DNA of 64,000 bases from Paludisphaera mucosa. GTDB lineage: Bacteria; Planctomycetota; Planctomycetia; Isosphaerales; Isosphaeraceae. Positions 22,058 through 37,385 of the stretch are shown piece by piece. The position numbers were made by a program, and so were the translations under genes. The notes below the pieces were generated by a model. That model was not told the origin of the DNA and ran no database searches. It saw only the letters and a list, made by a program, of their open reading frames with translations. The DNA lies in the NCBI RefSeq assembly GCF_029589435.1, contig NZ_JARRAG010000002.1, positions 1,364,001 to 1,428,000 of the forward strand, given 5' to 3'. Every line of letters begins with the position of its first letter. Position 1 is the stretch's first letter.

Positions 22058-22293
22058 CCACCGTCGCGCTCCCATGAGGACGCCGTCGCTCATCCCCGCC
22101 GCGACGACGGCCGCGGGCGCGTCCCCGCACGGGCGAGGCGGAATGAGCGCCACTTCCTGAAAAAGAGCCAACCATCCCCGGGGCGGGCTGCACTCCTAAT
22201 GACGTCCGACCCACCTCCCCCATCGGGGGCGGTTCCGTTATCCGAGTGCATGGCTCAAGGCCCTCCGCATCGGAGGGCGTACCGGGAGGCGTC

Positions 22294-22920
22294 ATGAAGA
22301 GCATCGCGATCTGGGCGGCCGCGCTCTGCGTCGGATTCGGCGGGGGCGCCGCGAAGGCGGCCCTTGTGGTCGGCGCGACCATCTCGGCCCAGCAAGACGG
22401 GTCGAATTACGATTATACGATCGTCCTGACGAACTCGGCGGCCAGCACGGTGAACGTGGGCACGTTCTGGTTCGCCTGGATCCCGGGCCAGGACTACCTG
22501 AAGACGTCGCCCTCCTCAATCACGTCGCCCGCCGGCTGGTCGTCCGCGATCACCCACTTCCCCGACGCGCCGACCAACGGCTACGCGATCCAGTGGGTCG
22601 CCGGCTCCGGGGCCTCGCCCGACCCGACGAAGGCGATCACGCCCGGTTCCTCGCTGACCTTCGGCTTCACGAGCGCCGACGCGCCGTCCGAGGTCTTCGG
22701 GAACTCGACCTTTTTCAATCATCCGTCGGTCCTCACCTCGTTCGTTTACGAGGGCGCCCCATTCCGAGGCGAGAGCCTCCAGTTCACCGTCGCGGCGGTC
22801 CCCGAGCCCTCGTCTCTGGCCCTGGCGGCCTTCGGAACGCTGGGAGGGGCCGTCGCGCTCCGCCGCCGGCGTGCGAAGGCTCCGGGATCGGGCGCGAGGG
22901 TCGATTCGATAAATTCTTGA
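22294..22920 (+). CDS. PEP-CTERM sorting-domain protein (copy 1)
   Basis: A 208-residue exported protein: signal peptide MKSIAIWAAALCVGFGGGAA, a beta-rich middle (TIVLTNSAASTVNVGTFWFA, then LTFGFTSADAPSEVFGNSTF), and a C-terminal PEP-CTERM signal made of VPEPSS, a hydrophobic helix and RRRR. GGGAGG precedes the ATG at 22294. The next gene (23060-23662) is a paralogue. The conserved middle has no recognised enzyme motif and may be a matrix or surface component sorted by an exosortase. Confidence 0.85.
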   Translation: MKSIAIWAAALCVGFGGGAAKAALVVGATISAQQDGSNYDYTIVLTNSAASTVNVGTFWFAWIPGQDYLKTSPSSITSPAGWSSAITHFPDAPTNGYAIQWVAGSGASPDPTKAITPGSSLTFGFTSADAPSEVFGNSTFFNHPSVLTSFVYEGAPFRGESLQFTVAAVPEPSSLALAAFGTLGGAVALRRRRAKAPGSGARVDSINS

Positions 22921-23059: not shown

Positions 23060-23662
23060 TTGAAGTCGATCGCCATTTTCGGGGCCGTTTTGGCCCTCAG
23101 CCTGTCGGGTGCCGAGGCCAGGGCCGCCCTCATCGCGAGCGCGGTGATCTCGGCCCAGCAGGACGGACCTCTCTACGATTATTCGATCACGTTGACGAAT
23201 TCGGCCTCCAGCACGGTGGACGTCGGGACCTTCTGGTTCGGCTGGGTGCCCTTCCGGAACTTCCTGACGACGGCCCCGACGTCGGTCACGTCGCCCGCGG
23301 GCTGGTCGTTCACGATCACCCACGTCCCGAACTCGTCGACCGACGGCTTCGGCGTCCGTTGGGTCGCGGGCTCCGCGGCCTCGCCCGACCCGACGAAGGC
23401 GCTCGCGCCGGGGTCCTCGTTGACCTTCGGCTTCACGAGCGCCGACGCGCCGACGCAGGTCTTCGGGAACTCGTCCTTCTACCCGGCCGACCTGGTCCGC
23501 ACCTCGTTCGTCTACCAGGGCGGCCCGCTGCAGGGCGAGAGCTCCCAGTTCGTCGCGACGGCGGTCCCCGAGCCCGCGTCGCTGGCCCTGGCGGCCCTCG
23601 GCGTCGCCGGCGGCGGGGCCGTCGGCCTCCGGCGCGTCGGGGGACGGCGACCGGGGCGTTGA
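23060..23662 (+). CDS. PEP-CTERM sorting-domain protein (copy 2)
   Basis: A 200-residue paralogue of the preceding protein. Shared stretches include ISAQQDG, TLTNSASSTVDVGTFWFGWV, VTSPAGWS, WVAGSAASPDPTKALAPGSS and LTFGFTSADAPTQVFGNSSF, then VPEPASLALAALG and a basic end. The start is TTG at 23060 with GGAGGA six bases upstream; it gives MKSIA, identical to copy 1, which decides the start. The pair is a tandem duplication. Divergence is strongest in loops. Confidence 0.85.
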   Translation: MKSIAIFGAVLALSLSGAEARAALIASAVISAQQDGPLYDYSITLTNSASSTVDVGTFWFGWVPFRNFLTTAPTSVTSPAGWSFTITHVPNSSTDGFGVRWVAGSAASPDPTKALAPGSSLTFGFTSADAPTQVFGNSSFYPADLVRTSFVYQGGPLQGESSQFVATAVPEPASLALAALGVAGGGAVGLRRVGGRRPGR

Positions 23663-23801
23663 TTTCGGACCACGACACTATCCCGATCTCGGCGGCGATC
23701 CTATCCTGGTCCTTGTCTCATATCCCGCCGCCGAGATCGTCCAAATGCAGGCACTCCGCCCCGGGCCGGAACCGGGGCCCCGACGTTCAGGAGACGCGCC
23801 C

Positions 23802-24776
23802 ATGTCAGCTTCGCTCGTCGGAGATCAGGCGGAATTCCCGTGGCTGTCGGGCCGGCCGGACGAGGGCTCGGTCGCGACGACGGACCGGGAGCTGCTGGAT
23901 CGCTTCCTGACCGACCGGGACGAGGCCGCCTTCGAGCGGCTCGTCGGGCGTCACGGCCCGAGGGTCCTGCGCATCTGCCGGCGATGGCTGGGGGACGGCC
24001 AGGACGCCGAGGACGCCTATCAGGCGACGTTCCTCCTGCTCGCGACCCGCGGCGACGCGATCCGGCGGCCGGGGAACGTCGGCGGCTGGCTCTCCGGGGT
24101 CGCCCGGCGGGTGGCCGGACGGGCGAAGATGAAGGCGACCCGCCGGCGACGGCTGGAAGGGACCTCGATCGACCTCCACGAGGTCGCCGACCGCCGCGGC
24201 CCGGCCCTCGGCGACGACCTGCGCGCGCTCCGCGCCGAGATCGAGCGGCTGCCCGAGAAATACCGCCGTCCCATCGAGCTTTGCTACTGGGACGGCCTGA
24301 GCAGCGAGCAGGCCGCCTCCCTGCTGCAATGCCCGACCGGCACGGTCAAGTGGCGGCTCTCGCAGGCCCGCGAGAGCCTCCGCGGCCGGCTCGGCCGCGC
24401 CGGCATTCTGCTCTCGACGCTGCTCGCCTGGCTGGGCCGCCCCCGCCGCTCCGACGCCGCCTCGGCCCTGGTGCATTCCGGTCGCGATCTCGCGTCGTCC
24501 GCCGCGTCACCGGCGGGCGGCGCGGACGCATCGCGGCGCGTCAAGGACGCCGTCGACCTGGCCCTCCTGCTCCGCGACGCCCCGTCGCTCCTCGGGGAAG
24601 CCGCGTCGCGGGGGGGCCGGTCGACGCGAAGATTCGGCGGGCTCGCACCCCTGATCGTCGTCGCGGCGGCGTTCCTGGCGGCCTCCTTCTGGTCGCTGCC
24701 GACCCTCGCCCGCGTCTCCGAGCTGCTCGTGCCGTCCCAGGCCTGGGGGACCGCCCACGCCTGCGGCGACCACTAG
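23802..24776 (+). CDS. ECF sigma factor with C-terminal membrane segment
   Basis: A 324-residue extracytoplasmic-function sigma factor. Region 2 spans about residues 33-105 (DEAAFERLVGRHGPRVLRIC, GQDAEDAYQATFLLLATRG). Region 4 spans about 145-198 (RLPEKYRRPIELCYWDGLSS, then TVKWRLSQARESLRGRL). It is ~130 residues longer than a plain ECF factor; the extra part has a hydrophobic stretch at 200-212 and a likely membrane helix at about 281-299 (LAPLIVVAAAFLAASFW). C-terminal membrane extensions of this kind are known in planctomycete ECF groups and may replace a separate anti-sigma factor. AGGAGA precedes the ATG at 23802. The stop overlaps that of the convergent GNAT gene. Confidence 0.88.
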   Translation: MSASLVGDQAEFPWLSGRPDEGSVATTDRELLDRFLTDRDEAAFERLVGRHGPRVLRICRRWLGDGQDAEDAYQATFLLLATRGDAIRRPGNVGGWLSGVARRVAGRAKMKATRRRRLEGTSIDLHEVADRRGPALGDDLRALRAEIERLPEKYRRPIELCYWDGLSSEQAASLLQCPTGTVKWRLSQARESLRGRLGRAGILLSTLLAWLGRPRRSDAASALVHSGRDLASSAASPAGGADASRRVKDAVDLALLLRDAPSLLGEAASRGGRSTRRFGGLAPLIVVAAAFLAASFWSLPTLARVSELLVPSQAWGTAHACGDH

Positions 24777-25494: not shown

Positions 25495-26076
25495 GTGAAA
25501 CCCACCTCTCTCAGCCTGCTCGATCGGCTCAGGGCGGCCGATCCCGACGCGTCCGACTGGGATCGGCTGCACGACGTCTACCTCCCCCTGCTCCGACGTT
25601 GGCTCGGACGCGTGCCCGGCCTGGGCGCCGAGGCCGACGACCTGGCGCAGGAGGTGTTCGCCGTCGTGGCCCGGGAGATCCCCCGTTTCGACAGGCGTCG
25701 CGAGGGGTCGTTCCGCGCGTGGCTCCGGTGCGTCGCCGTGAACCGCGTGCGGACCTATCAGAAGCGACGCCGACGGTTTCCGATCGCGGGCCTCGATCCG
25801 TCGGCGGGCTTCCTCGAATCCCTCGCCGACCCCGACGGCGAACTCGCCCGGGAGTGGGACCGCGAGCATGACCAGTTCGTGTTCCAGAAGCTGCTGGGGA
25901 TCGTCCGCCCCGACTTCGCGGCGGCCACGTGGGAGGCCTTCCGGAGGTTCGCCCTCGAGGGCCGTCCCGCGGCGGAGGTCGCGGCGGGGCTGGGCCAGAC
26001 CGAGAACGCGGTGCTCCAGGCCAAGTCGCGGATCCTCAGGCGGTTGCGGGCGGAGGCCGGGGATTTCCTGGGCTGA
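25495..26076 (+). CDS. ECF sigma factor (kinase-linked)
   Basis: A 193-residue sigma factor. Region 2: HDVYLPLLRRWLGRV, then AEADDLAQEVFAVVAREIPR and FRAWLRCVAVNRVRTYQ. Region 4: FRRFALEGRPAAEVAAGLGQ, TENAVLQAKSRILRRLRAEA. The start is GTG at 25495. It lies 94 bases upstream of a giant transmembrane Ser/Thr kinase on the same strand. ECF groups adjacent to Ser/Thr kinases, without a classical anti-sigma factor, are known from planctomycetes and are thought to be activated by phosphorylation; that activity here is inferred from the arrangement. Confidence 0.9.
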   Translation: MKPTSLSLLDRLRAADPDASDWDRLHDVYLPLLRRWLGRVPGLGAEADDLAQEVFAVVAREIPRFDRRREGSFRAWLRCVAVNRVRTYQKRRRRFPIAGLDPSAGFLESLADPDGELAREWDREHDQFVFQKLLGIVRPDFAAATWEAFRRFALEGRPAAEVAAGLGQTENAVLQAKSRILRRLRAEAGDFLG

Positions 26077-26170
26077 ATTTCCGCTTTCGCGGCAGGTCCG
26101 GCCGCGACCCGGCCTTTCTTCCACGGCGATCCAGGGCGTCAGCTCGTCGCAGGGATCCGGAGAACGACCG

Positions 26171-29100
26171 ATGGACGTCCAGCATCCCAACGACCGCGAC
26201 CTCCGCTCATACGGCCTGGGCCGGCTCGCCGAGGCCCGCGCCGAGGCGGTCGGCTCGCACCTGGAAGTCTGTCCCCCCTGCCGTCGCCGGGCGGCCGAGG
26301 TCTCGTCCGACTCGTTCCTGGGCCGGCTCCGCGACGCCCAGGGCGGACGGATCCTCGCGTCCCCGGGAGGACGCGAGGAGGCCGCCACGTGGACGCACGG
26401 CGCGTCGGCCCCCGCGCCCCGACCTCCCCAGGCCGATTCGATCCCGCCCGGCCTCGCCGATCATCCCGACTACGCGATCCGCCGCGAGCTGGGGAGGGGA
26501 GGCATGGGGGTCGTCTATTTGGCCTACAACCGGATGATGGGCCGCGACGAAGTGCTGAAGGTGATCGGGCCCGACATCATGGGCCGTCCCGAGGTCTTCG
26601 ATCGCTTCCAGCGCGAGATCCGCTCGGTCGCCCAGCTCCGCCACCCGAACATCGTCACGGCCTACTCGGCGTTCCGGCTCGGCGGCGGGCTCGTCTTCGC
26701 GATGGAGTACGTCGACGGGATGGACCTGGCGCGGCTCATCAAGGTGAAGGGTCCGCTGCCGGTCGTGCACGCGGCCTACTTCGCCCACCAGGCGGCCCTG
26801 GGCCTCCAGCACGCCCACGAGCGGGGGTTGGTCCACCGCGACATCAAGCCCCACAACCTGATGCTGACGCACGACGGCAAGCACCGGGTGATCAAGATCC
26901 TGGACTTCGGCCTGGCCAAGGCGACCCGCGAGGGCCAGGTCGACAGCGCCCTGACGCACGAGGGCCAGACGCTCGGGACCCCCGACTACATCGCCCCCGA
27001 GCAGATCTTCAACGCCCCCGACGTCGACGTCCGGGCGGATATCTACAGCCTGGGATGCTCCCTGTACTACTTCCTGGCCGGCCGGCCGCCGTTCCAGGCG
27101 GCGTCGCTCTACGACCTCTACCAGGCCCACATCTCGCGCGACGCCGGCCTCCTCGATCGCCTCCGCGCCGACGTCCCGTCCGAGTTGGCGGCGCTCGTGG
27201 CGAAGATGATGGCCAAGGACCCGGACCGGCGGTTCCAGACGCCGGCCGAGGTCGCCCGGGCGCTGACGCCCTTCTTCAAGAAGCCGACGGCCGCCGCGCC
27301 CCGGCCGCGCCCGGACGTCACCCCTGATGTCGCCGTCTCCGAAGCGCCCCTCGACGGCCCCGCGGCGCCCCCGGCCCTCCCGCCGCCTCGGCCCCCCAAG
27401 CCCGCGCCCCCGCCCGAAGAGATGTGGAAGAGCCTGATCGACTTCCGGGACACCGTGGCGGACCGCCCCTCGCCGACGCCGGTCGCGGCCCCCGTCCCGG
27501 TCGCGGCGCTGGAGACCTCGTCGCCCTGGTCCCGCATCCCCGCCCGCCCCGCGATCGCCGTCGGGGCCTTGCTGCTGGGGCTCGGCCTCGCCTTCCTCGT
27601 TTCGGACCTCCTGATCCGGACCCGGTACGGCACGATCCGCGTCGGCGGCCTGCCGAAAGGCGCCGCGGTCGCCGTCGACGGCGAGGCGGCCACGATCGTC
27701 TGGACCGAAGGCGGAGCCGGCGAGGTCTCGGTCAAGGCCGGGCCTCACGGCCTCGAGGTGCGGCAGGGACGAGTCGTCGTCTACGGCGAGAAGATCGCCG
27801 TCGAGGCCGGGACGACGTTCACCGTCGAGCTGGACCCGTCCCGGCCGGTCCCGATCCCGACCCGCCCGGAAGTCGAGAAGCGGGAGCCCCACCCCTGGCC
27901 CCAGACGTCGACCCGACTCGGACGCGAAATGCCGACGGGTCACTGGCCGCTGGCCCTCAGCCGAGACGCCCGGCGGCTGGCTTGCCGCCGACCGGACGGC
28001 ACGATCGGGATCCTGTCGGCGCCCGACAGCGGCGTCTTCGCCGAGTCCTTGCAACTTCGGGGGTTCTTCTGGGCGGCGGCCTTCAGCCCGGACGGCTCGG
28101 TCCTGGCGACCGCGGGGAACGACAAGCTCGTGCACCTGTGGGACGTGGCGAGCGGCGAGGAGGCCCGCCAACTGCGCGGTCATGAGCAGGCGGTGCTCGC
28201 CGCGGCGTACAGCCCGGACGGGAAATGGATCGCGTCCGGGGGCATCGACAGGACGCTGCGGATCTGGGATGCGGCCACGGGCGAGAACAAGGCCGCCCTC
28301 GGCGGCCACACCGGCAGCATCTGGAGCATCGCGTTCAGCCCGGACGGGAAATGGATCGCGTCCGGCAGCGGCGACGCGTGGGAGGACCAGAAGAATGATC
28401 CTGCCGTCATGGAGCTCATGCTCTGGAATCGCGAGTCCGGCTCCTTCCGGAGGCTCGACGGCCACGCCATGCGCGTGACTTCGGTCGCGTTCAGCCCCGA
28501 CGGCCGCCGCCTCGCGTCTTGCAGCTTCGACAAGACGTTGAAGATCTGGGACGTGGAGACCCTGGAATGCCTCGCCACGCTCGGCCCGTACGACGATCAT
28601 CCGATCGATGCGGCCTTCAGCCCCGACGGCCGTCTCGTGGCCAGCGCGTCGCGGGACAACCTCGTCCGCGTGTGGGACACGCGCGACAATTCGCTCCTCG
28701 ACACCCTCACCGGCGCGACGCGGTCCCTCCTCGGGTTCGTCCAGTTCAGCCCGGCCGGGCGCTGGATCTTCACCGGCGGCGGGAGCCTGAAGTCGTGGGA
28801 GAACCCGCTGCCCGACGCGTCGGAACCGAAGCCCCCCGCCGACGCGAGGGGCGACGGCGATGCGGCGGAGGCCTCCCCGGCGACCGTCCCCGCCGAGGTC
28901 GGCGACGCGGCGGCGCCGGGCCTCGGCGCGGTCGTCGCCGAGCACGTCGGGGCCCGGAATCCCGTCTCGGAAGGCTTCACGCTCGACCCCGCGCCGAACG
29001 CCGATTGGGCCGCTTCGGAGACGGCCGACGATCTCGGAAAGCCGACCTGGTCCGTGCCCTCCGAGTCTCCGAGGCGTCCGAGCTTCTATCGCCGCGCCCT

Positions 29101-31747
29101 CTCGAATTCCCAGGAGGCCGACGCCCTCGAGCGGGGATTCGCGTTGGTCCTCGCCGCACGCGCCCTGCGGAACCGAGCGCCTGCATCGACCGAATCCGAT
29201 CGGTTCCCCATCGCAAAGGCTTACGTCCAGATAGGGCCGCAGCGTTATGAGATCGCCCTGGGGCTGACCGAGGCCGGCGATACCGTCGTCCTAGTCCCCG
29301 AGGACGTCGGGGCGGCGGGGGCGGACGCGGCGCACACGGCGTCGGGGCGGCACGTGACCCTGCCCGGGAATGCGCATCACGCCTATCGTCTCGTATACAA
29401 ACCGGAATCGAAGCTCGCCGATCTCTACATCGACGATCGTCTAGCCCTTGCAGGCTGCCCGGGGGATCGATACGGGGACCTGGGAGAGCCAAGGATCGGC
29501 TTCGGATCCGTCAATGGCGGCCAGGGGAATTTCCACCTGGTTCGACTCGCCGTCGGGCCCCCGGCCGAGGCCGCCCGGGGCGAGCCAAGTCCAGAGCCCT
29601 CGCGGCCGGCCCCCGTGGTCGTGGCGCGGCGCGACGAATTCACCCCGATGTTCAACGGCAAGGACCTCGCCGGCTGGACGAAGAACCCGACCCAGGGGGG
29701 TGACTGGCGGGTCGAGGGCGGCCTGATCGTCGGCACGGCCCCGGGGATCAGCCACCTCTACAGCGATCGAGGCGACTACAAGGACTTCCGTCTGCGAGTC
29801 AAGGCCAAGATCAACGACGGCGGCAACAGCGGCGTCTTCCTCCGCGCGGCGGGCTCGCCGGTCTGGCCCCAGAACGACCCGCGTTGGCCGGGCGGCTACG
29901 AGGCCCAGATCAACAGCACGCATCGGGATCCGATCCGCACCGGGAGCCTCTACATCAACGGCCGGTTTCCGGCCGCCGTGCGTGACACGCCGATCCGCCC
30001 GGGCCAATGGTTTACGATGGAGATGACCGCGGAGGGCGACCACATCGTCATCAAGGTCGACGATCGCGTCACCGCCGACTACATCGACTCGCAACGGTTG
30101 GCGTTCTCGGGGCACATCGCGCTCCAGGTGCACAATTCTCAGACCCGCATCGAGTTCGAGAGCATCGAGATCCATGAGCTGGGCGTCCGGCCCCCGGCGA
30201 AGCCGGCCAGGCCGGCCCTCGCGTCGAAGCCGCCGAACGACGCGGTGATCTTCGTGGCGGGCCGCTACAAGGTCTATCCCGAGCGGATAACCTGGCAGGC
30301 GGCCCGGAGACGTTGCGAGGAGATGGGCGGCCGCCTGGCCCGCGTCCCCGATGCGGCCGCGAACGACTTCCTGATCGATCTCATGAACCGGGCCAAGCTC
30401 GACGAGGCCTGGCTGGGGGCGACCGACGAGGAGGAGGAGGGCGAGTGGAGGTGGCTCGACGGCTCGCCGCTCCGCTTCAGCGCCTGGGACGTCGTCCAGC
30501 CGACCAACCGCAGCACGCGCGGCGAGCCCGAGCATTACCTGCTGCTCTCGGCCTCGCGACGGAAGTGGAACGACGTCCCGCCCCAGGGCGAGGTGAAGCT
30601 GGGGCCGCCGGGGTTCATCTGCGAATGGCCGGAGAACCCGGCTTCGACGGCCGCCGGACGCGACGGCTTCGTCCCGCTCTTCGACGGCAGGAGCCTCGAC
30701 GGTTGGAAGGTCGACCGGGGCGATCCGGCCACCTGGCGGGTGCAGGACCGCGCCCTGGTCTCGAAAGGCTCGGGCGATTATCGGGACGTGACGTACCTGC
30801 TCTCGGATCGGGAGTTTTCGGAGTTCTCGCTGCATCTCGAGTACCAGCTCGCCCCCGACTCGGACGGCGGCGTCGTGTTCCGGGCCGTGCCCGGCGAGAA
30901 TCCTTCGCCCCCCGAGATCAACCTGCGGCGGTTCGACGATCCGCCGGGCATGAACGCCCGGACGGGGGCGCTCCGGTGGCGGAACAACGGCGACGGGACC
31001 AACTATCTCGCCCCCGACCGGCCGGTGGAGCCGCGTGCGGCCGCCGCCTGGAACGCGATGGAGGTCGAAGTCCGCGAAGGCACGCTCGAGGTCGTCATCA
31101 ACGGCGTCCTCGCGAAACGCGTCGATCTCGCGCTGCTGGCCAGGGAGCCCGACGCGATGGAGGGGATCCGGCGTCGCTCGGGTCGGATCGGCTTCCAGTG
31201 CCACACGGGGACGATCCGCTACCGGAACGTCGAACTCCGGGATCTGACCGCCGCCGCGGCCGTCGCGCCGGCGGTCGCCCCCCGGCCCGCCGACGCCCGG
31301 GAGTTCCGGGGCGCGCACTACAAGCTCTTCCCCCAGAAGCTCTCCTGGCATGAAGCGGCCGCCAAGTGCCGCGAGATGGGCGGACGGCTAGCGATCGTTC
31401 GCGACGCCGACCAGAACGCGTTCCTCCTCGGGTTGCTGAAGGAGCGGAGCGTGGATGCGATTTGGCTCGGGGGGACCGACGAGCAGGTCGAGAAGGTATG
31501 GGTCTGGGTCGACGGCTCGCCCATCCCGCATCCCGACGAACCCGACATCGGCATCTATACGAACTGGAACGCCGGCCAACCGAACAATAAGGGGGACGGC
31601 GAGAACTACCTCGTCATGATCGACACATTTAACAAAGTTGATTTTAAGGGCACGTGGTCCGACCAGCCGGCCGTCTCGGTCCAGCACGCGCCGGGATTCA
31701 TCTGCGAGTGGCCCCGTCCCGTCGTCCGGCCCGCGAGGCGGCGGTGA
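26171..31747 (+). CDS. giant transmembrane Ser/Thr kinase with WD40, DUF1080 and C-type lectin domains
   Basis: A 1,858-residue receptor-like kinase. N-terminus (residues 5-37): an H-x3-C-x2-C zinc-finger-like motif (SHLEVCPPC), as in anti-sigma factors. Kinase at ~100-370: glycine loop GRGGMG, Lys130, HRD at 222-224, DFG at 245-247, APE at 275-277, all intact. After a Pro-rich linker, one membrane helix at ~458-482 (IAVGALLLGLGLAFLVSDLL). The outer part holds: WD40-type blades (~590-880, repeated FSPDG and WDV), a jelly-roll-like region (~930-1135), a DUF1080/3-keto-disaccharide hydrolase-type domain (~1155-1340, FNGKDLAGW), a C-type lectin domain (~1361-1487), a second DUF1080 (~1497-1690, FDGRSLDGW) and a second C-type lectin (~1712-1848, with QPN and WSD). 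ATG at 26171. Upstream ECF sigma factor and downstream FHA gene suggest one pathway. Confidence 0.92.
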   Translation: MDVQHPNDRDLRSYGLGRLAEARAEAVGSHLEVCPPCRRRAAEVSSDSFLGRLRDAQGGRILASPGGREEAATWTHGASAPAPRPPQADSIPPGLADHPDYAIRRELGRGGMGVVYLAYNRMMGRDEVLKVIGPDIMGRPEVFDRFQREIRSVAQLRHPNIVTAYSAFRLGGGLVFAMEYVDGMDLARLIKVKGPLPVVHAAYFAHQAALGLQHAHERGLVHRDIKPHNLMLTHDGKHRVIKILDFGLAKATREGQVDSALTHEGQTLGTPDYIAPEQIFNAPDVDVRADIYSLGCSLYYFLAGRPPFQAASLYDLYQAHISRDAGLLDRLRADVPSELAALVAKMMAKDPDRRFQTPAEVARALTPFFKKPTAAAPRPRPDVTPDVAVSEAPLDGPAAPPALPPPRPPKPAPPPEEMWKSLIDFRDTVADRPSPTPVAAPVPVAALETSSPWSRIPARPAIAVGALLLGLGLAFLVSDLLIRTRYGTIRVGGLPKGAAVAVDGEAATIVWTEGGAGEVSVKAGPHGLEVRQGRVVVYGEKIAVEAGTTFTVELDPSRPVPIPTRPEVEKREPHPWPQTSTRLGREMPTGHWPLALSRDARRLACRRPDGTIGILSAPDSGVFAESLQLRGFFWAAAFSPDGSVLATAGNDKLVHLWDVASGEEARQLRGHEQAVLAAAYSPDGKWIASGGIDRTLRIWDAATGENKAALGGHTGSIWSIAFSPDGKWIASGSGDAWEDQKNDPAVMELMLWNRESGSFRRLDGHAMRVTSVAFSPDGRRLASCSFDKTLKIWDVETLECLATLGPYDDHPIDAAFSPDGRLVASASRDNLVRVWDTRDNSLLDTLTGATRSLLGFVQFSPAGRWIFTGGGSLKSWENPLPDASEPKPPADARGDGDAAEASPATVPAEVGDAAAPGLGAVVAEHVGARNPVSEGFTLDPAPNADWAASETADDLGKPTWSVPSESPRRPSFYRRALSNSQEADALERGFALVLAARALRNRAPASTESDRFPIAKAYVQIGPQRYEIALGLTEAGDTVVLVPEDVGAAGADAAHTASGRHVTLPGNAHHAYRLVYKPESKLADLYIDDRLALAGCPGDRYGDLGEPRIGFGSVNGGQGNFHLVRLAVGPPAEAARGEPSPEPSRPAPVVVARRDEFTPMFNGKDLAGWTKNPTQGGDWRVEGGLIVGTAPGISHLYSDRGDYKDFRLRVKAKINDGGNSGVFLRAAGSPVWPQNDPRWPGGYEAQINSTHRDPIRTGSLYINGRFPAAVRDTPIRPGQWFTMEMTAEGDHIVIKVDDRVTADYIDSQRLAFSGHIALQVHNSQTRIEFESIEIHELGVRPPAKPARPALASKPPNDAVIFVAGRYKVYPERITWQAARRRCEEMGGRLARVPDAAANDFLIDLMNRAKLDEAWLGATDEEEEGEWRWLDGSPLRFSAWDVVQPTNRSTRGEPEHYLLLSASRRKWNDVPPQGEVKLGPPGFICEWPENPASTAAGRDGFVPLFDGRSLDGWKVDRGDPATWRVQDRALVSKGSGDYRDVTYLLSDREFSEFSLHLEYQLAPDSDGGVVFRAVPGENPSPPEINLRRFDDPPGMNARTGALRWRNNGDGTNYLAPDRPVEPRAAAAWNAMEVEVREGTLEVVINGVLAKRVDLALLAREPDAMEGIRRRSGRIGFQCHTGTIRYRNVELRDLTAAAAVAPAVAPRPADAREFRGAHYKLFPQKLSWHEAAAKCREMGGRLAIVRDADQNAFLLGLLKERSVDAIWLGGTDEQVEKVWVWVDGSPIPHPDEPDIGIYTNWNAGQPNNKGDGENYLVMIDTFNKVDFKGTWSDQPAVSVQHAPGFICEWPRPVVRPARRR

Positions 31748-31802
31748 GATCCCGAACGTCCCGGCCTTCGAGTTCGTCGTCGTCCGCATCGGAGGGCATG
31801 TC

Positions 31803-32534
31803 ATGGCGTCGTCGAGGGGTCGAGAACGCCCGCCGGGGATGGCGAGCACGGTGGTCGAGCTGGACGAGGACGTCCGCCGGGCCTTCGCGGCGCGAGCGAG
31901 GGAGAAAGCGGCCCGCGCCGCGACCTTCCGGCCGCTCGAACGGCCGCCGACGGCCGTCTTGACCGTGTGCGACGACGGCCGGTCCGAGGGCGAGGCGATC
32001 CGCATCCGGGGCGAGCGGTTCGTGATCGGCCGGACCGAGGGGGACCTGCGGATCGCCCACGACCCGCGGGTCTCGGCGCGACACGTCGAGATCGTCCGCA
32101 AGGGGGTCGGCGGGTCCGCCTCGTGGGCCGTCGTCGACGTGGGGAGCCGCAACGGGCTGTTCGTGCGCGTCTCCCATGCGCCCCTGGCCGACGGGGCCGA
32201 GTTCCTCGTCGGCCGGGGCCGCTACCGGTTCGACGACCCTCGGCCCGGCTCCGGACGCCCCCCCGCGCTCCGCGAGCCGATCGACGGCGGCCGCGTGGTG
32301 CTGACCGGTTCGGAATGCTGGATCGGCTCCGACCCGTCCTGCCTCGTCGCCCGGCCCGACGACCCGTTCTGCGAGCCGCGCCACGCCCGGCTCCGGCGCG
32401 GTCCGCGGGGCCGCTGGCGCGTCGAGCACGACCACACGCTCAACGGCCTCTGGCTGCGCGTGGCCCGGATCGCGGTCGACCGCACCCTCCACTTCCAGCT
32501 CGGCGAGCAGCGCTTCCGGCTCCAGGTCGGCTGA
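31803..32534 (+). CDS. FHA-domain protein (two FHA modules)
   Basis: A 243-residue cytosolic phosphothreonine-binding protein. FHA module 1 covers about residues 50-145 with the conserved set G-R (76-77), S-A-R-H (91-94) and N-G (117-118). Module 2 (about 162-243) keeps G-S (175-176), P-R-H (192-194) and N-G (214-215), so it looks weaker. A charged N-terminal helix precedes them. The ATG at 31803 follows GGAGGG and lies 55 bases after the kinase stop, suggesting one operon. FHA proteins beside Ser/Thr kinases usually read the kinase's phosphothreonine. No output domain is present. Confidence 0.88.
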   Translation: MASSRGRERPPGMASTVVELDEDVRRAFAARAREKAARAATFRPLERPPTAVLTVCDDGRSEGEAIRIRGERFVIGRTEGDLRIAHDPRVSARHVEIVRKGVGGSASWAVVDVGSRNGLFVRVSHAPLADGAEFLVGRGRYRFDDPRPGSGRPPALREPIDGGRVVLTGSECWIGSDPSCLVARPDDPFCEPRHARLRRGPRGRWRVEHDHTLNGLWLRVARIAVDRTLHFQLGEQRFRLQVG

Positions 32535-33529: not shown

Positions 33530-35533
33530 TCAACGCACCCCCGCCGTCGAGACCTGCGAGCGTCCCAGGGTGAACGAGCCGCCGGGGCTGGGGCGGGCGA
33601 GCAGGCGCGGCAGCTCGACGTGCTCGAAGAACGCGTAGTTGGGCTTCTCGAACTTCTTGACGTGGTCGGCGAGCGACTCGTTGGGGCCGAGATGGGCGAT
33701 CTCGAAGTGTGGGAGCGTGGACGAGCCCGACTCCCACGCCTGCTGGCCCTGGTAGGCGAGCTTCACCCGGCTGAGCTGGGGGCGGACCTTGAACTTGTCG
33801 GTCCGGAACCCCGCGCCCATCGTGCGGTACGAGATCTCCTCCTCCTTGCCGGCCTCGACGGCCGGGAGCACGACGAGCGGGGCGCCGGGGGCGACCTTCA
33901 CCTGCATCTCGGCGAGTTTCGCCGTCAGGGCCTCGACGACCCGCCCGCGTTGCGAGCCGTCGGCGATCCCGGACGCGTCGATCGAGACCGTCGCGCCGGG
34001 GCGGAGGATGAAGAAGTTCGGGTCGGCCAGGGCCTGCTTCAGGGCCTGCTGGACGTTCGCCTGGGGGAGCCGCGCCGGGACGAGCGCGCCGGGCTGGTTC
34101 TGGCGGGCGGCGAGCAGGAACCAGCAGACGCCGTCGCGGTCGGCGACGACGGCCTCGGGGCCCTGGTACTCCCAGAGCTTGACCTGGCTCTCGACGTCGA
34201 TCAGGAAGCGGTCGCCGACGAGGACGTGGTCGTCGTCGGACCAGGCCGGCGGCACGTTGGGGCCGACCGCGATCGGGTTGAGCTGGACGTCGCGATGGAG
34301 CGCGCCGTCGTCCGAGTTCCAGACGAACATCTTGCCGCCGGCCAGGCAGGCGAACCGCTTGCCGGTCGGGCTGAAGCCGAAGGCCGGCCAGGGGGCGTGC
34401 TGCACGGGCATCGGCTGGAGCGCGGCGACCTGGCCGGCCTCGACGTCGAGCAGGCCGACCTTGCCGTCGTGGGCGAACGCCAGGAACTTGCCGTCGGGCG
34501 AGACGGCCGGCACGCAGCCGTCGGCCACCTGCAGCGTCGTCGTGGGCCGGACCGGGTCGAGATCCCAGATCGCCAGCTTGCCGCCGCCGACGGTCGCGAA
34601 CCGCTTCGGGCCCAGGAACGCGGCCCACTTCACGTCGCGCGCCGGCCCCTGCGCGTCGCCGTGGGGGGCCATCGTCCAGACCTTCACGACCCCCTTGCCG
34701 GCGAGGTTCCACAGCTCCAGGCGGTCGGCGTTGCCGAAGCCGAACTCGTCCTTGCGCATCAGGACCTGGTCGCCGGCGTCGGAGAGGGCCAGCGGCGCCA
34801 TCAGCCCCTCCGACTTCATCGAGGCCAGGGGCTTGCCGGCCTTGAGGTCGCAGAGCACGACCCGCGTCGCGCCGGGCTTGGGGTTGTCGAGCGTGTAGCC
34901 GACCAGGGCGTGGGTCCCGGGGGCGTTCAGCACGTACCCCTTGCGGCCCTCGAAGAAGTCGGTCGTGGCGGGGATCGGCACGGCGCGCAGGCGGGGGGAG
35001 GCGCTGGCGGTCGGGGCCGCGCCGGCGGATCCCACGGCGACCTTCCACTCGCCGTCGGCGGGCAGGCCGGCGAGCTGGGCCGAGGACCAGTCGGGCTGGA
35101 TCTCGAAGGGCTCGCCGCCGGCGGGCGAGGCGGGCGCGTCCGCGGAGGCCGGCTTCGCGGTCCCCGGCTTGCGCGCCATCCCGTTGTTGTGGCCGCTGCC
35201 CGGGGTGGGCTTGGGCTGGAACGGGTCCTCGGCCGGCTTGGGCTTGAAGGGGTCTTCCTCGGCGAGCTTCTTCTGCTGTTCGGCGACGTAGTTCCGGTCC
35301 GCCGAGCAGAGGCGGTCGAGGAGCACCTGCACCTGGCTGCCGTCGGCCTTCTTGAGGTTCACGTTCTCGCCGTCGACGCCGGCGTAACGGGCCTGGATCT
35401 TGAACCGGCCGCTGACGTCCTTCCAGGTCCGCACCTCGGGCTCGTCGGCCCGCGCCGGGGGGCTGGAGGCGAAAACCAGGACGCCGAACAGCACCGCGCA
35501 ACGCAGCGCGACGGGACCGAGACTCGCTCGCAT
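33530..35533 (-). CDS. secreted SHD1 / beta-propeller protein
   Basis: A 667-residue exported protein. Signal peptide at about 1-29 (VALRCAVLFGVLVFASSPPA). Residues ~33-80 are an SLA1 homology domain 1 (VRTWKDVSGRFKIQARYAGV, VNLKKADGSQVQVLLDRLCS), a small domain very common on exported planctomycete proteins. A Pro/Lys linker follows (EDPFKPKPAEDPFQPKPTPG). From ~150 onward there are propeller-like repeats (GKFLAFAHDGKVGLLDVEAG, GKRFACLAGGKMFVWNSDDG). The end has a conserved-looking polar region and a Ser/Thr-rich tail. ATG at 35533. Probably a cell-surface or periplasmic binding protein; no enzyme motif seen. Confidence 0.82.
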   Translation of the reverse strand: MRASLGPVALRCAVLFGVLVFASSPPARADEPEVRTWKDVSGRFKIQARYAGVDGENVNLKKADGSQVQVLLDRLCSADRNYVAEQQKKLAEEDPFKPKPAEDPFQPKPTPGSGHNNGMARKPGTAKPASADAPASPAGGEPFEIQPDWSSAQLAGLPADGEWKVAVGSAGAAPTASASPRLRAVPIPATTDFFEGRKGYVLNAPGTHALVGYTLDNPKPGATRVVLCDLKAGKPLASMKSEGLMAPLALSDAGDQVLMRKDEFGFGNADRLELWNLAGKGVVKVWTMAPHGDAQGPARDVKWAAFLGPKRFATVGGGKLAIWDLDPVRPTTTLQVADGCVPAVSPDGKFLAFAHDGKVGLLDVEAGQVAALQPMPVQHAPWPAFGFSPTGKRFACLAGGKMFVWNSDDGALHRDVQLNPIAVGPNVPPAWSDDDHVLVGDRFLIDVESQVKLWEYQGPEAVVADRDGVCWFLLAARQNQPGALVPARLPQANVQQALKQALADPNFFILRPGATVSIDASGIADGSQRGRVVEALTAKLAEMQVKVAPGAPLVVLPAVEAGKEEEISYRTMGAGFRTDKFKVRPQLSRVKLAYQGQQAWESGSSTLPHFEIAHLGPNESLADHVKKFEKPNYAFFEHVELPRLLARPSPGGSFTLGRSQVSTAGVR

Positions 35534-35689
35534 GATGACGACTCCCGACGTGAGAGCCCCCGATCTCGCCTCGACCCAAGGCCGGGATTAGGGGGCGTCG
35601 ATGCGTCGAACTTACCTCCGCGGAGGCGGGTCATCAAGCGTGCAATGCGGCGGCGATTCCTTAACTCACCAAGGTCCCCGCGCCGCGGG

Positions 35690-36391
35690 TCAGGCCCCCG
35701 CTCCGCGTCGCCGCAATTCTTCGGCGATCGGCGCGAAGCGGCGGTCGCCGGGGAACTGGTCGAGCCATTCCAGCAACGTCTTGCCGTCGCGGACGGCCCT
35801 GGCGTTTCGGTCGGCCCCCGCGTCGAGGAGAATCCGAACGACGCCCAGGTGGCCGTGCCCCCCGGCGCAGAACAGCACGGACTGCCCGCGCGTGGTCATG
35901 GCGTCGACGTCCGCGCCGCGCCCCATCAGCAGCCGGACGATCTCGGCGTCGCCGTTCCGGGCCGCGTGGTGGATCGGCCGGTCGCCCCGGCCGTCGGCCG
36001 CGGCCGCCAGGTGCGGGTGCCTGTCGAGGAGCGATCGCACCCGGGCGGCGTTCGCGAGGAAGACCGCCGCGAGGAACTGACGCGACAGGTCGTCGGCGGG
36101 CCGGACGTGGGCGTCCAGCGCTCCGTACTGGATGAGCAGCGCGACGATCGACTTGTTGTCGGGGACCTCGCCGGCGTAGTGCATCGCGTCGCCGTCGTGG
36201 GCCGCCAGGTCGGCCCCGGCCTCGATGAGCAGCCGCACGACCGCCTCGCGCCGCCAGAGGCCCGCGTGGAAGATCGGCCGCCAGCCGTGCTCGTCGTCGG
36301 CGTCGACGACGCCGGGGTCGGCGGCGATCATCGCCCGCACGGCCTCGACGTCGCCCCGTCCGCACGCGTCATGGATCGATTCTTCCGCCAT
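35690..36391 (-). CDS. ankyrin-repeat protein
   Basis: A 233-residue protein made almost entirely of ankyrin repeats with no signal peptide: [80 protein letters not shown], each ending in GAD-type turns. About five to six repeats. Ankyrin stacks bind other proteins; partner unknown. ATG at 36391, 91 bases downstream of the SPFH gene on the same strand. Confidence 0.88.
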
Positions 36392-36482
36392 GGCGTTTCC
36401 CCGTCCCGTCCGATTCGGAACCTCGCGGACAGGTCATCCTCGCATCGGGCGCCCTCCCCATGCCAGGGTTTTCCGGGGTCCG

Positions 36483-37385
36483 TCAACCCTTGCCGGCGTT
36501 GACGACCGGCTGGGTGCCGCGGTCGGAGCAGAGGACGACCAGCAGGTTGCCGACCAGGGTGGCCTTCTTGTCGTTGTCCAGCTCGACGATGTTCTGGTGC
36601 GAGAGCCGTTCCAGGGCCATCTCGACCATGCCCACGGCGCCCTCGACGATCATCTGCCGGGCGGCGATCACGGCGCTGGCCTGCTGGCGCTGGAGCATGG
36701 CGTGGGCGATCTCCTGGGCGTAGGCCAGGTGGCTGATCCGCGCCTCCAGGACCTGGACGCCCGCCTGCACGAGCCGCTCCTGGATCTCGACCTTGAGGTG
36801 CTCGGCGACCTCCTGCGTGTGGCTCCGCAGCGCGATCTCGCCCTCGACGTGGGGGTCGTAGGGATAGCTCAGCGCCAGGTTCCGCAGGGCGGCCTCGCTC
36901 TGGACGTGGACGAAGTCGTTGTAGTCGTCGACGTGGAAGAGGGCCTCGGCCGTGTCGACGACTCGCCAGACGACCACGGCGGCGATCTCGATCGGGTTGC
37001 CGGCCAGGTCGTTGACCTTCAGCCGCTCGCTCTCGAAGTTCCGCACCCGCAGCGAGATGGTCCGCTTGGTGAACAGCGGGTTGATCCACCGCAGCCCCGG
37101 CTCGCGGACCGTCCCGCGGTAGTCGCCGAAGAGCTGCAACACCTTGGCGTCGTTCGGGCCCACCGTGAACAGCCCGATCAGCCCGAAGAACAGGACGAGG
37201 CCCGCCAGGATGGCCGGGAGCACCCAGATGGGGTGCTCCGTCGCGATCGCCATGACCAGCATCAGCAGCCCGAACGCCAGGGCCCCGCCGAAATAGGGCA
37301 AGACGCTCATGCCCGTCCTCGGCACGATGTGCACGTCCCGCATCTGGATCGTCGGCTTCGTTGCGCTTCCCCAATCCGCTTCCAT
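36483..37385 (-). CDS. SPFH/Band 7 domain membrane protein
   Basis: A 300-residue protein of the SPFH (stomatin/prohibitin/flotillin/HflK-C) superfamily. Two hydrophobic helices at ~28-46 and ~53-73 ([34 protein letters not shown]) are followed by the SPFH core: [60 protein letters not shown], and then the coiled-coil helix with [20 protein letters not shown] and [18 protein letters not shown]. Such proteins form membrane microdomain scaffolds and often control proteases. Divergent from the gene at 37833. ATG at 37385. Confidence 0.92.

Follow-up and report, generated by a model that had tools for sequence, protein, structure and literature searches.

A membrane Ser/Thr kinase encoded beside an ECF sigma factor in Paludisphaera mucosa begins with a zinc-finger anti-sigma-type domain

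How might a membrane kinase control the sigma factor encoded beside it? The question is raised by three genes of Paludisphaera mucosa that lie in a stretch of 64,000 nucleotides (the window; contig NZ_JARRAG010000002.1, positions 1,364,001 to 1,428,000) of a genome of 8.2 Mb in nine contigs. They encode an extracytoplasmic function (ECF) sigma factor, a transmembrane Ser/Thr kinase and a protein with FHA domains. Open reading frame and domain scans agreed with an initial annotation, made from the sequence alone, that the three genes are consecutive and on the same strand; they lie in tandem, the kinase gene starting 94 bases after the sigma gene and the FHA gene 55 bases after the kinase gene. 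That annotation overlooked that the first 50 residues of the kinase match zinc-finger anti-sigma (ZAS) domains. We think it probable that the kinase doubles as an anti-sigma factor, clamping the neighboring ECF sigma factor at the membrane and freeing it on a signal, all within one polypeptide. The principal features, in window coordinates, are:

25495..26076, + strand: ECF sigma factor, 193 aa, GTG start (Sigma70_r2, E=2e-14; sigma70-ECF TIGR02937, E=1e-15)
26171..31747, + strand: transmembrane Ser/Thr kinase, 1858 aa (ATG at 26171, with GGAGA 7 bases before)
26171..26320, + strand: ZAS-type domain of the kinase, aa 1-50, predicted zinc ligands H5, H30, C34 and C37, followed by D47-S48 (profiles, PDB matches, fold, conservation)
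26471..27241, + strand: protein kinase domain, aa 101-357 (Pfam Pkinase, 6e-50; glycine loop, VLKV, HRDIKPHN, DFGL, APEQ)
27545..27616, + strand: single transmembrane segment, about aa 459-482 (hydropathy)
31803..32534, + strand: double-FHA protein, 243 aa, FHA1 canonical and FHA2 degenerate (FHA, E=1e-14, 2 stretches)

For the kinase, we preferred the ATG at 26171 over the start of the longest open reading frame at 25868, which falls within the sigma gene. The complete catalytic set described previously was confirmed, and these motifs, together with the one hydrophobic segment, identify a Hanks-type transmembrane Ser/Thr kinase. Residues 1-50 (MDVQHPNDRD...GSHLEVCPPCRRRAAEVSSDSFL) matched two curated models below their thresholds, NCBIfam TIGR02451 (ChrR) over residues 4-45 (E=6.4e-5, far under the full-length cut-off of the model) and Pfam zf-HC2 (E=5e-4, just under cut-off). 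We then compared a profile of 17 sequences, the window kinase and 16 others chosen by an H-x2-4-C-x2-C motif, with the PDB. Matches under 1e-3 were two ChrR chains (3e-7), RslA (2e-6; 3hug), DdvA (5e-6) and a CHAT-domain protein (9e-5); weaker rows were RsiW (0.09) and one unrelated protein (0.9). An AlphaFold model of the kinase N terminus consists of three helices, with blocks of residues 1-40 at pLDDT 88-96, and anti-sigma factors (ChrR, DdvA, RslA and RsiW) made up rows 1-16 of 27 in a Foldseek search. As expected of a ZAS domain, the predicted zinc ligands H5, H30, C34 and C37 follow the pattern H...H-x3-C-x2-C. Similarity to solved anti-sigma factors (by the profile; the curated models alone fall below cut-off), fold and an ECF neighbor are also as in ZAS domains. 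The domain resembles the ZAS (class I) anti-sigma domains of ChrR, RshA and RslA in its profile match, its helical fold and its H-x24-H-x3-C-x2-C spacing, which we aligned to ChrR on the residues that we take to be the zinc ligands of that protein. Unlike in those anti-sigma factors, the predicted anti-sigma domain is here part of a much longer protein that also contains a Hanks kinase, a transmembrane segment and a giant outer region.

Conservation was read from 52 distinct ZAS-kinases selected for the H-x3-C-x2-C motif. At a distance of 25 residues N-terminal to the motif His, 27 of them have His and 23 have Cys, and His or Cys in 50/52 fits the expectation for a fourth zinc ligand. Directly after the zinc site is an Asp-Ser/Thr pair (D47-S48 in the window kinase), with Asp in 37/52 and Ser or Thr in 32/52; at other positions in the next 19 residues, Ser/Thr made up 0-23%. 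This pair is a candidate autophosphorylation point.

Is the domain tied to ECF sigma factors? In the P. mucosa genome, we merged 110 kinase hits into 93 loci and read each with 2.5-3 kb per side where the contig allowed, scoring the ZAS motif in the 150 residues preceding the kinase domain and ECF genes within 600 bp. Seven of the 93 loci carried the motif, and all seven had an ECF gene in range. The 86 loci without the motif comprised 18 with and 68 without an ECF gene, so that the motif occurred in none of the 68 ECF-less kinases (Fisher 5e-5). In a tree of 31 ECFs within 1 kb of kinases, a branch with support 96/93 set the seven ZAS-linked ECFs apart from the rest. The kinase complement is large, and the 25 of 93 loci with an ECF within 600 bp span several motif classes of sigma region 2.2 (sigma-2.2).

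We also compared two queries across the class, the window ECF (30 loci, 25 readable, five without a readable central ECF) and an ECF with the sigma-2.2 motif DPSD (30 loci, 28 readable, two without). The ZAS motif was present in 19/19 kinases in reach of window-type ECFs and in 0/23 in reach of DPSD-type ECFs. A scan of named genomes (17 loci) found it beside 13 of the 14 ECFs that had a neighboring kinase, all but L154; the remaining three loci were a stand-alone finger (L144), a finger at a contig end (L146) and a contig end (L151). In keeping with an anti-sigma role, two window-type ECFs in genome G008 are each followed by a zinc-finger-type protein of 71-75 aa, with little beyond the finger and no fused kinase; one passes Pfam zf-HC2 and the other has no Pfam match.

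The sigma factors differ as well. ECF43 factors depend on phosphorylation because uncharged residues take the place of the acidic DAED in their region 2.2; for ECF59 and the former ECF60, the residue named is a serine (PMC8999054 and PMC8103513). The window ECF lacks uncharged sigma-2.2 residues with a phospho-acceptor, its motif being the acidic EADD. Among the 24 ECFs beside ZAS-less kinases in the P. mucosa genome, one of which had no readable motif, 10 have Ser at the third position (five DPSD, two DASD, ELSD, EPSD and GPSD), like the published phosphoswitch factors. The third position is Ser or Thr in none of the seven ZAS-linked ECFs, six of which are acidic there; two have Thr at the second position. 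Class-wide, third-position Ser/Thr occurred in 22/28 DPSD-type versus 0/25 window-type ECFs (21 acidic, four Ala).

The association of the three genes had been offered for checking in other planctomycetes, and the module recurs in other genera and families. Contiguous ECF, ZAS-kinase and FHA genes were found in the window, in Planctomycetales bacterium 71-10 (G004, contig MKTT01000149.1), which is the nearest named relative by sigma gene (80% identity), and in a genome of another family (G278). In G021, all three are present, interrupted by two genes, one for another kinase and one for a ZAS protein. In a further family, three genomes (L352, L355 and L357) have ECF, kinase and FHA genes in which the kinase lacks the ZAS motif. 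All six genomes with an ECF at least 63% identical (G004, G130, G021, G019, G009 and G028) contain the FHA gene, which lies on the ECF stretch in G004, G021 and G028 and is non-adjacent in G009; in G019 and G130, the contig stops inside or just behind the kinase. These findings support the three genes as a recurring module.

On the model that we favor, the cytoplasmic N-terminal ZAS domain would bind the neighboring ECF and hold it at the membrane. The sigma factor, with its acidic sigma-2.2 motif, would be competent by itself. The outer domains, of WD40, DUF1080 and C-type lectin type, may receive a signal, perhaps a glycan, that changes the state of the kinase. Phosphorylation in cis of the ZAS domain or linker, possibly at D47-S48, or a conformational change would then free the sigma factor to act on its presumptive targets, and the first FHA domain of the adaptor could read phosphothreonine made by the kinase on itself or on the FHA protein. 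Since the kinase begins with an anti-sigma-type domain, we favor release of the sigma factor over direct switch-on by phosphate. There is precedent in separate proteins: the ZAS anti-sigma factors RshA and RseA let go of their sigma factors once phosphorylated by PknB (PMC8999054; for RshA also PMC13147305). As in that system, a kinase, a ZAS anti-sigma domain and an ECF are at hand, but in the window kinase and ZAS domain form one polypeptide.

Several observations weigh against this model. The Foldseek E-values were 0.028 to 1.5, none below 0.001. Because the 52 kinases, like the profile sequences, were selected by the motif, the invariance of its His and two Cys residues is by construction, and D47-S48 was spotted post hoc and is not universal. 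As the ZAS-linked ECFs form one clade and go back to a single origin, they cannot be counted as independent cases. A Gemmata sp. bin (L154:3541-5004) has an acidic window-type ECF beside a kinase that lacks the ZAS motif, possibly reflecting a switch of mechanism or a loss. No kinase is in reach of 6/25 readable window-type ECFs; among these, L076 (genome G008) has a stand-alone finger and L289 has the motif in the next frame. The split in sigma-2.2 motifs is not clean, because acidic or second-position-Ser motifs also occur beside ZAS-less kinases. The third residue is acidic in 7/24 of those ECFs (two DEED, DPED, YEED, QVED, DADE and LADE), and 5/24 have Ser at the second position (two DSMD, DSLD, DSTD and DSGD); the remaining readable motif is DVLD. 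Conversely, the third residue is Arg in one ZAS-linked ECF out of seven (DARD) and Ala in 4/25 relatives. Lastly, of the 39 genomes with an ECF match at 1e-46, 11 contain the FHA gene, versus 50 of the 297 genomes of the class (one-sided Fisher 0.04). Because this co-occurrence is weak, we regard the ECF and the ZAS-kinase as the core and the FHA protein as accessory.

The initial annotation raised control of the sigma factor by phosphorylation, which would have the kinase activate the ECF directly, as PknT does EcfP. The pairing of an ECF gene with a transmembrane Ser/Thr kinase gene is indeed as in EcfP-PknT and EcfK-PknS (ECF43), and T4, S5 and T145 are invariant in 9/9 aligned sigma factors. 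In a review, ECF61 is among the planctomycete groups listed as regulated by phosphorylation, which also counts against our favored model: the ECF61 representative, OJW24604.1, comes from Planctomycetales bacterium 71-10, the genome of the closest orthologue, and the window ECF may belong to that group (PMC8999054). The review adds that, outside ECF43, the groups retain a DAED-like motif and may work differently. Unlike the ECF43 pairs, the window ECF has EADD in place of an uncharged motif, the third position is never Ser or Thr in its 25 readable relatives, and the kinase carries an anti-sigma-type domain. In its ECF43 form, the earlier claim found no support. As sigma-2.2 is acidic, we set direct activation aside as the main mechanism and consider it unlikely; phosphorylation at other sigma residues may still occur. 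A neighboring idea is that the ZAS domain only docks the sigma factor, recruiting it as a substrate or tethering it near the membrane without inhibition, while phosphorylation elsewhere on the sigma factor tunes it. It draws on the same homology and association data as the clamp-and-release model, and the window-type ECF of L154, beside a kinase without a ZAS domain, would suit it. The finger proteins of G008 would have no fused kinase to serve for docking, and we give docking alone a similarly low probability.

The sigma factor could also be a mere neighbor, the main pathway running from the kinase to the FHA protein as the true output, in the manner of OdhI or GarA. Relevant here are the surroundings of the FHA gene, matches to which at E 1e-12 occur in the 50 class genomes mentioned above. 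Surroundings were taken from 46 of the 50, leaving out G064, G078, G127 and G262, together with extra copies in G091 and G247; contig ends clipped at least L100 and L103. Within 1 kb, 26 of the resulting 51 FHA genes have a kinase gene on the same strand, another five have an ECF and no kinase, and 19 have neither; the remaining one (L326) is itself fused to a kinase. Thus, 32/51 have a kinase or ECF neighbor or a kinase fusion, and 27/51 have the kinase; a rough estimate of the kinase neighbors expected for a random gene is a few percent (93 loci, 8.2 Mb and ~6800 genes assumed). An acidic N-terminal motif, T-x-[LIV]-E, defined post hoc, is present in 20/51 relatives versus 0.25 expected by shuffling, and the NCBIfam OdhI and FhaB models match the window protein below cut-off. 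Against a pathway that bypasses the sigma factor stand the five FHA genes with an ECF and no kinase, the window N terminus, which misses the strict Thr motif (TVVELDED is similar), and the ECF link of all seven ZAS-kinases in the P. mucosa genome. We judge it the least probable of the explanations considered.

Our data suggest that, for the window ECF family, the anti-sigma factor sits inside the kinase. Several planctomycete ECF groups have been assigned to phosphorylation control on the grounds that their usual neighbor is a kinase gene and not one for an anti-sigma factor, and most retain the acidic motif (PMC8999054). Bacterial signaling by ECF/anti-sigma pairs is normally classed apart from signaling by Ser/Thr kinases, and here both seem to be joined in one protein. 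More tentatively, and with more doubt than conviction, we raise the idea that one genome uses two sigma-kinase logics: sigma factors with a Ser switch would be activated directly, and acidic ones would be clamped by anti-sigma kinases that phosphorylate themselves beside the zinc site, with an FHA adaptor reading the result. Together, a ZAS start and the sigma-2.2 residues allow a first, though imperfect, guess from sequence at the mechanism of a given pair. We found no description of a ZAS-kinase fusion in the literature searched, which did not cover Casas-Pastor 2021, Wiegand 2020, Jogler 2012 and Iyer 2020; these works may describe it.

We next considered the FHA protein itself, whose gene starts at ATG 31803 after GGAGGG. 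In canonical FHA domains, an Arg, a Ser, a His and an Asn in the loops bind phosphothreonine. The first FHA domain of the window protein has all four (R in 51, S in 46, H in 51 and N in 35 of the 51 sequences). In the second, Ser replaces Arg and Cys replaces Ser; the canonical Ser occurs in 0/51 and the Arg in 20/51. The earlier description as a double-FHA phosphothreonine reader is thus borne out as to the two domains, with the correction that the second is degenerate. Like OdhI, GarA and FhaB, the family lies near Ser/Thr kinases and, in 20/51 relatives, has a Thr-containing acidic N terminus; unlike them, the window protein has two FHA domains, one degenerate.

Other arrangements were seen among the FHA loci. 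In L326:8179-10248, kinase and FHA matches share one reading frame of 690 aa. In four genomes of one family (L335, L337, L343 and L348), the FHA gene directly follows an ECF gene, without a kinase gene between the two. In L327, L341 and L344, the start of the FHA-linked kinase resembles, by eye, anti-sigma helices without the zinc ligands, and these stretches showed no ECF. L101:7482-10300 reads ECF, FHA and a degenerate ZAS fragment, then a transposase-like frame (by eye), with no kinase detected; a separate L101 row in the comparison of FHA-linked kinases stems from another ECF in the locus and was left out. A possible parallel comes from Rhodopirellula baltica, where RB1789, which has an FHA domain, is in a table of heat-, cold- and salt-induced genes, and the ECF gene adjacent by number, RB1790, is induced at high salinity (PMC2754498).

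The outer part of the kinase contains the following:

27629..27832, + strand: PEGA-like stretch directly following the membrane segment on the outer side, about aa 487-554 (weak match under the cut-off, E=0.011)
27950..28795, + strand: WD40 propeller region, about aa 594-875 (domain scan, 6 stretches)
28838..29620, + strand: unassigned region, aa 890-1150, the previously proposed jelly-roll (no confirming match)
29636..30172, + strand: DUF1080 / 3keto-disac_hyd domain 1 (domain scan)
30284..30580, + strand: C-type lectin-like domain 1, aa 1372-1470 (Lectin_C)
30665..31240, + strand: DUF1080 / 3keto-disac_hyd domain 2 (domain scan)
31313..31717, + strand: C-type lectin-like domain 2, limits approximate (second Lectin_C stretch; sequence)

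Pfam matches supported the WD40, two DUF1080 and two C-type lectin domains of the initial annotation. Its jelly-roll found no such match: residues 890-1150 have no Pfam match, a best PDB sequence match of E=0.98, no paralogue in the genome and a mean AlphaFold pLDDT of 40 in a model built without an alignment. The lectin and DUF1080 domains hint at glycan sensing. Lectin domain 1 reads WND, and domain 2 reads QPN and WSD, motifs that we presume to matter for sugar binding. DUF1080 and C-type lectin domains recur in the FHA-linked kinases L327 and L342, and WD40 is seen in L102, L323 and L339. DUF1080 is among the domains joined to planctomycete kinases (PMC11032199). The outer part of the closest orthologue has three DUF1080 stretches and no lectin match. 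Because the outer domains vary in this way between close orthologues, we rejected lectin-based glycan sensing as a conserved property. No carbohydrate-use families were found among the nine neighboring proteins scanned.

Upstream of the trio, at 23745-24776, is a second ECF-like sigma gene with a DAED motif and a C-terminal extension, separated from the trio by a GNAT gene on the opposite strand. Two neighboring proteins with PEP-CTERM motifs, alike by eye, are encoded at 22246-22920 and 23060-23662. Downstream, the minus strand of 33530-37385 encodes an SHD1-domain protein, an ankyrin-repeat protein and an SPFH/Band 7 protein.

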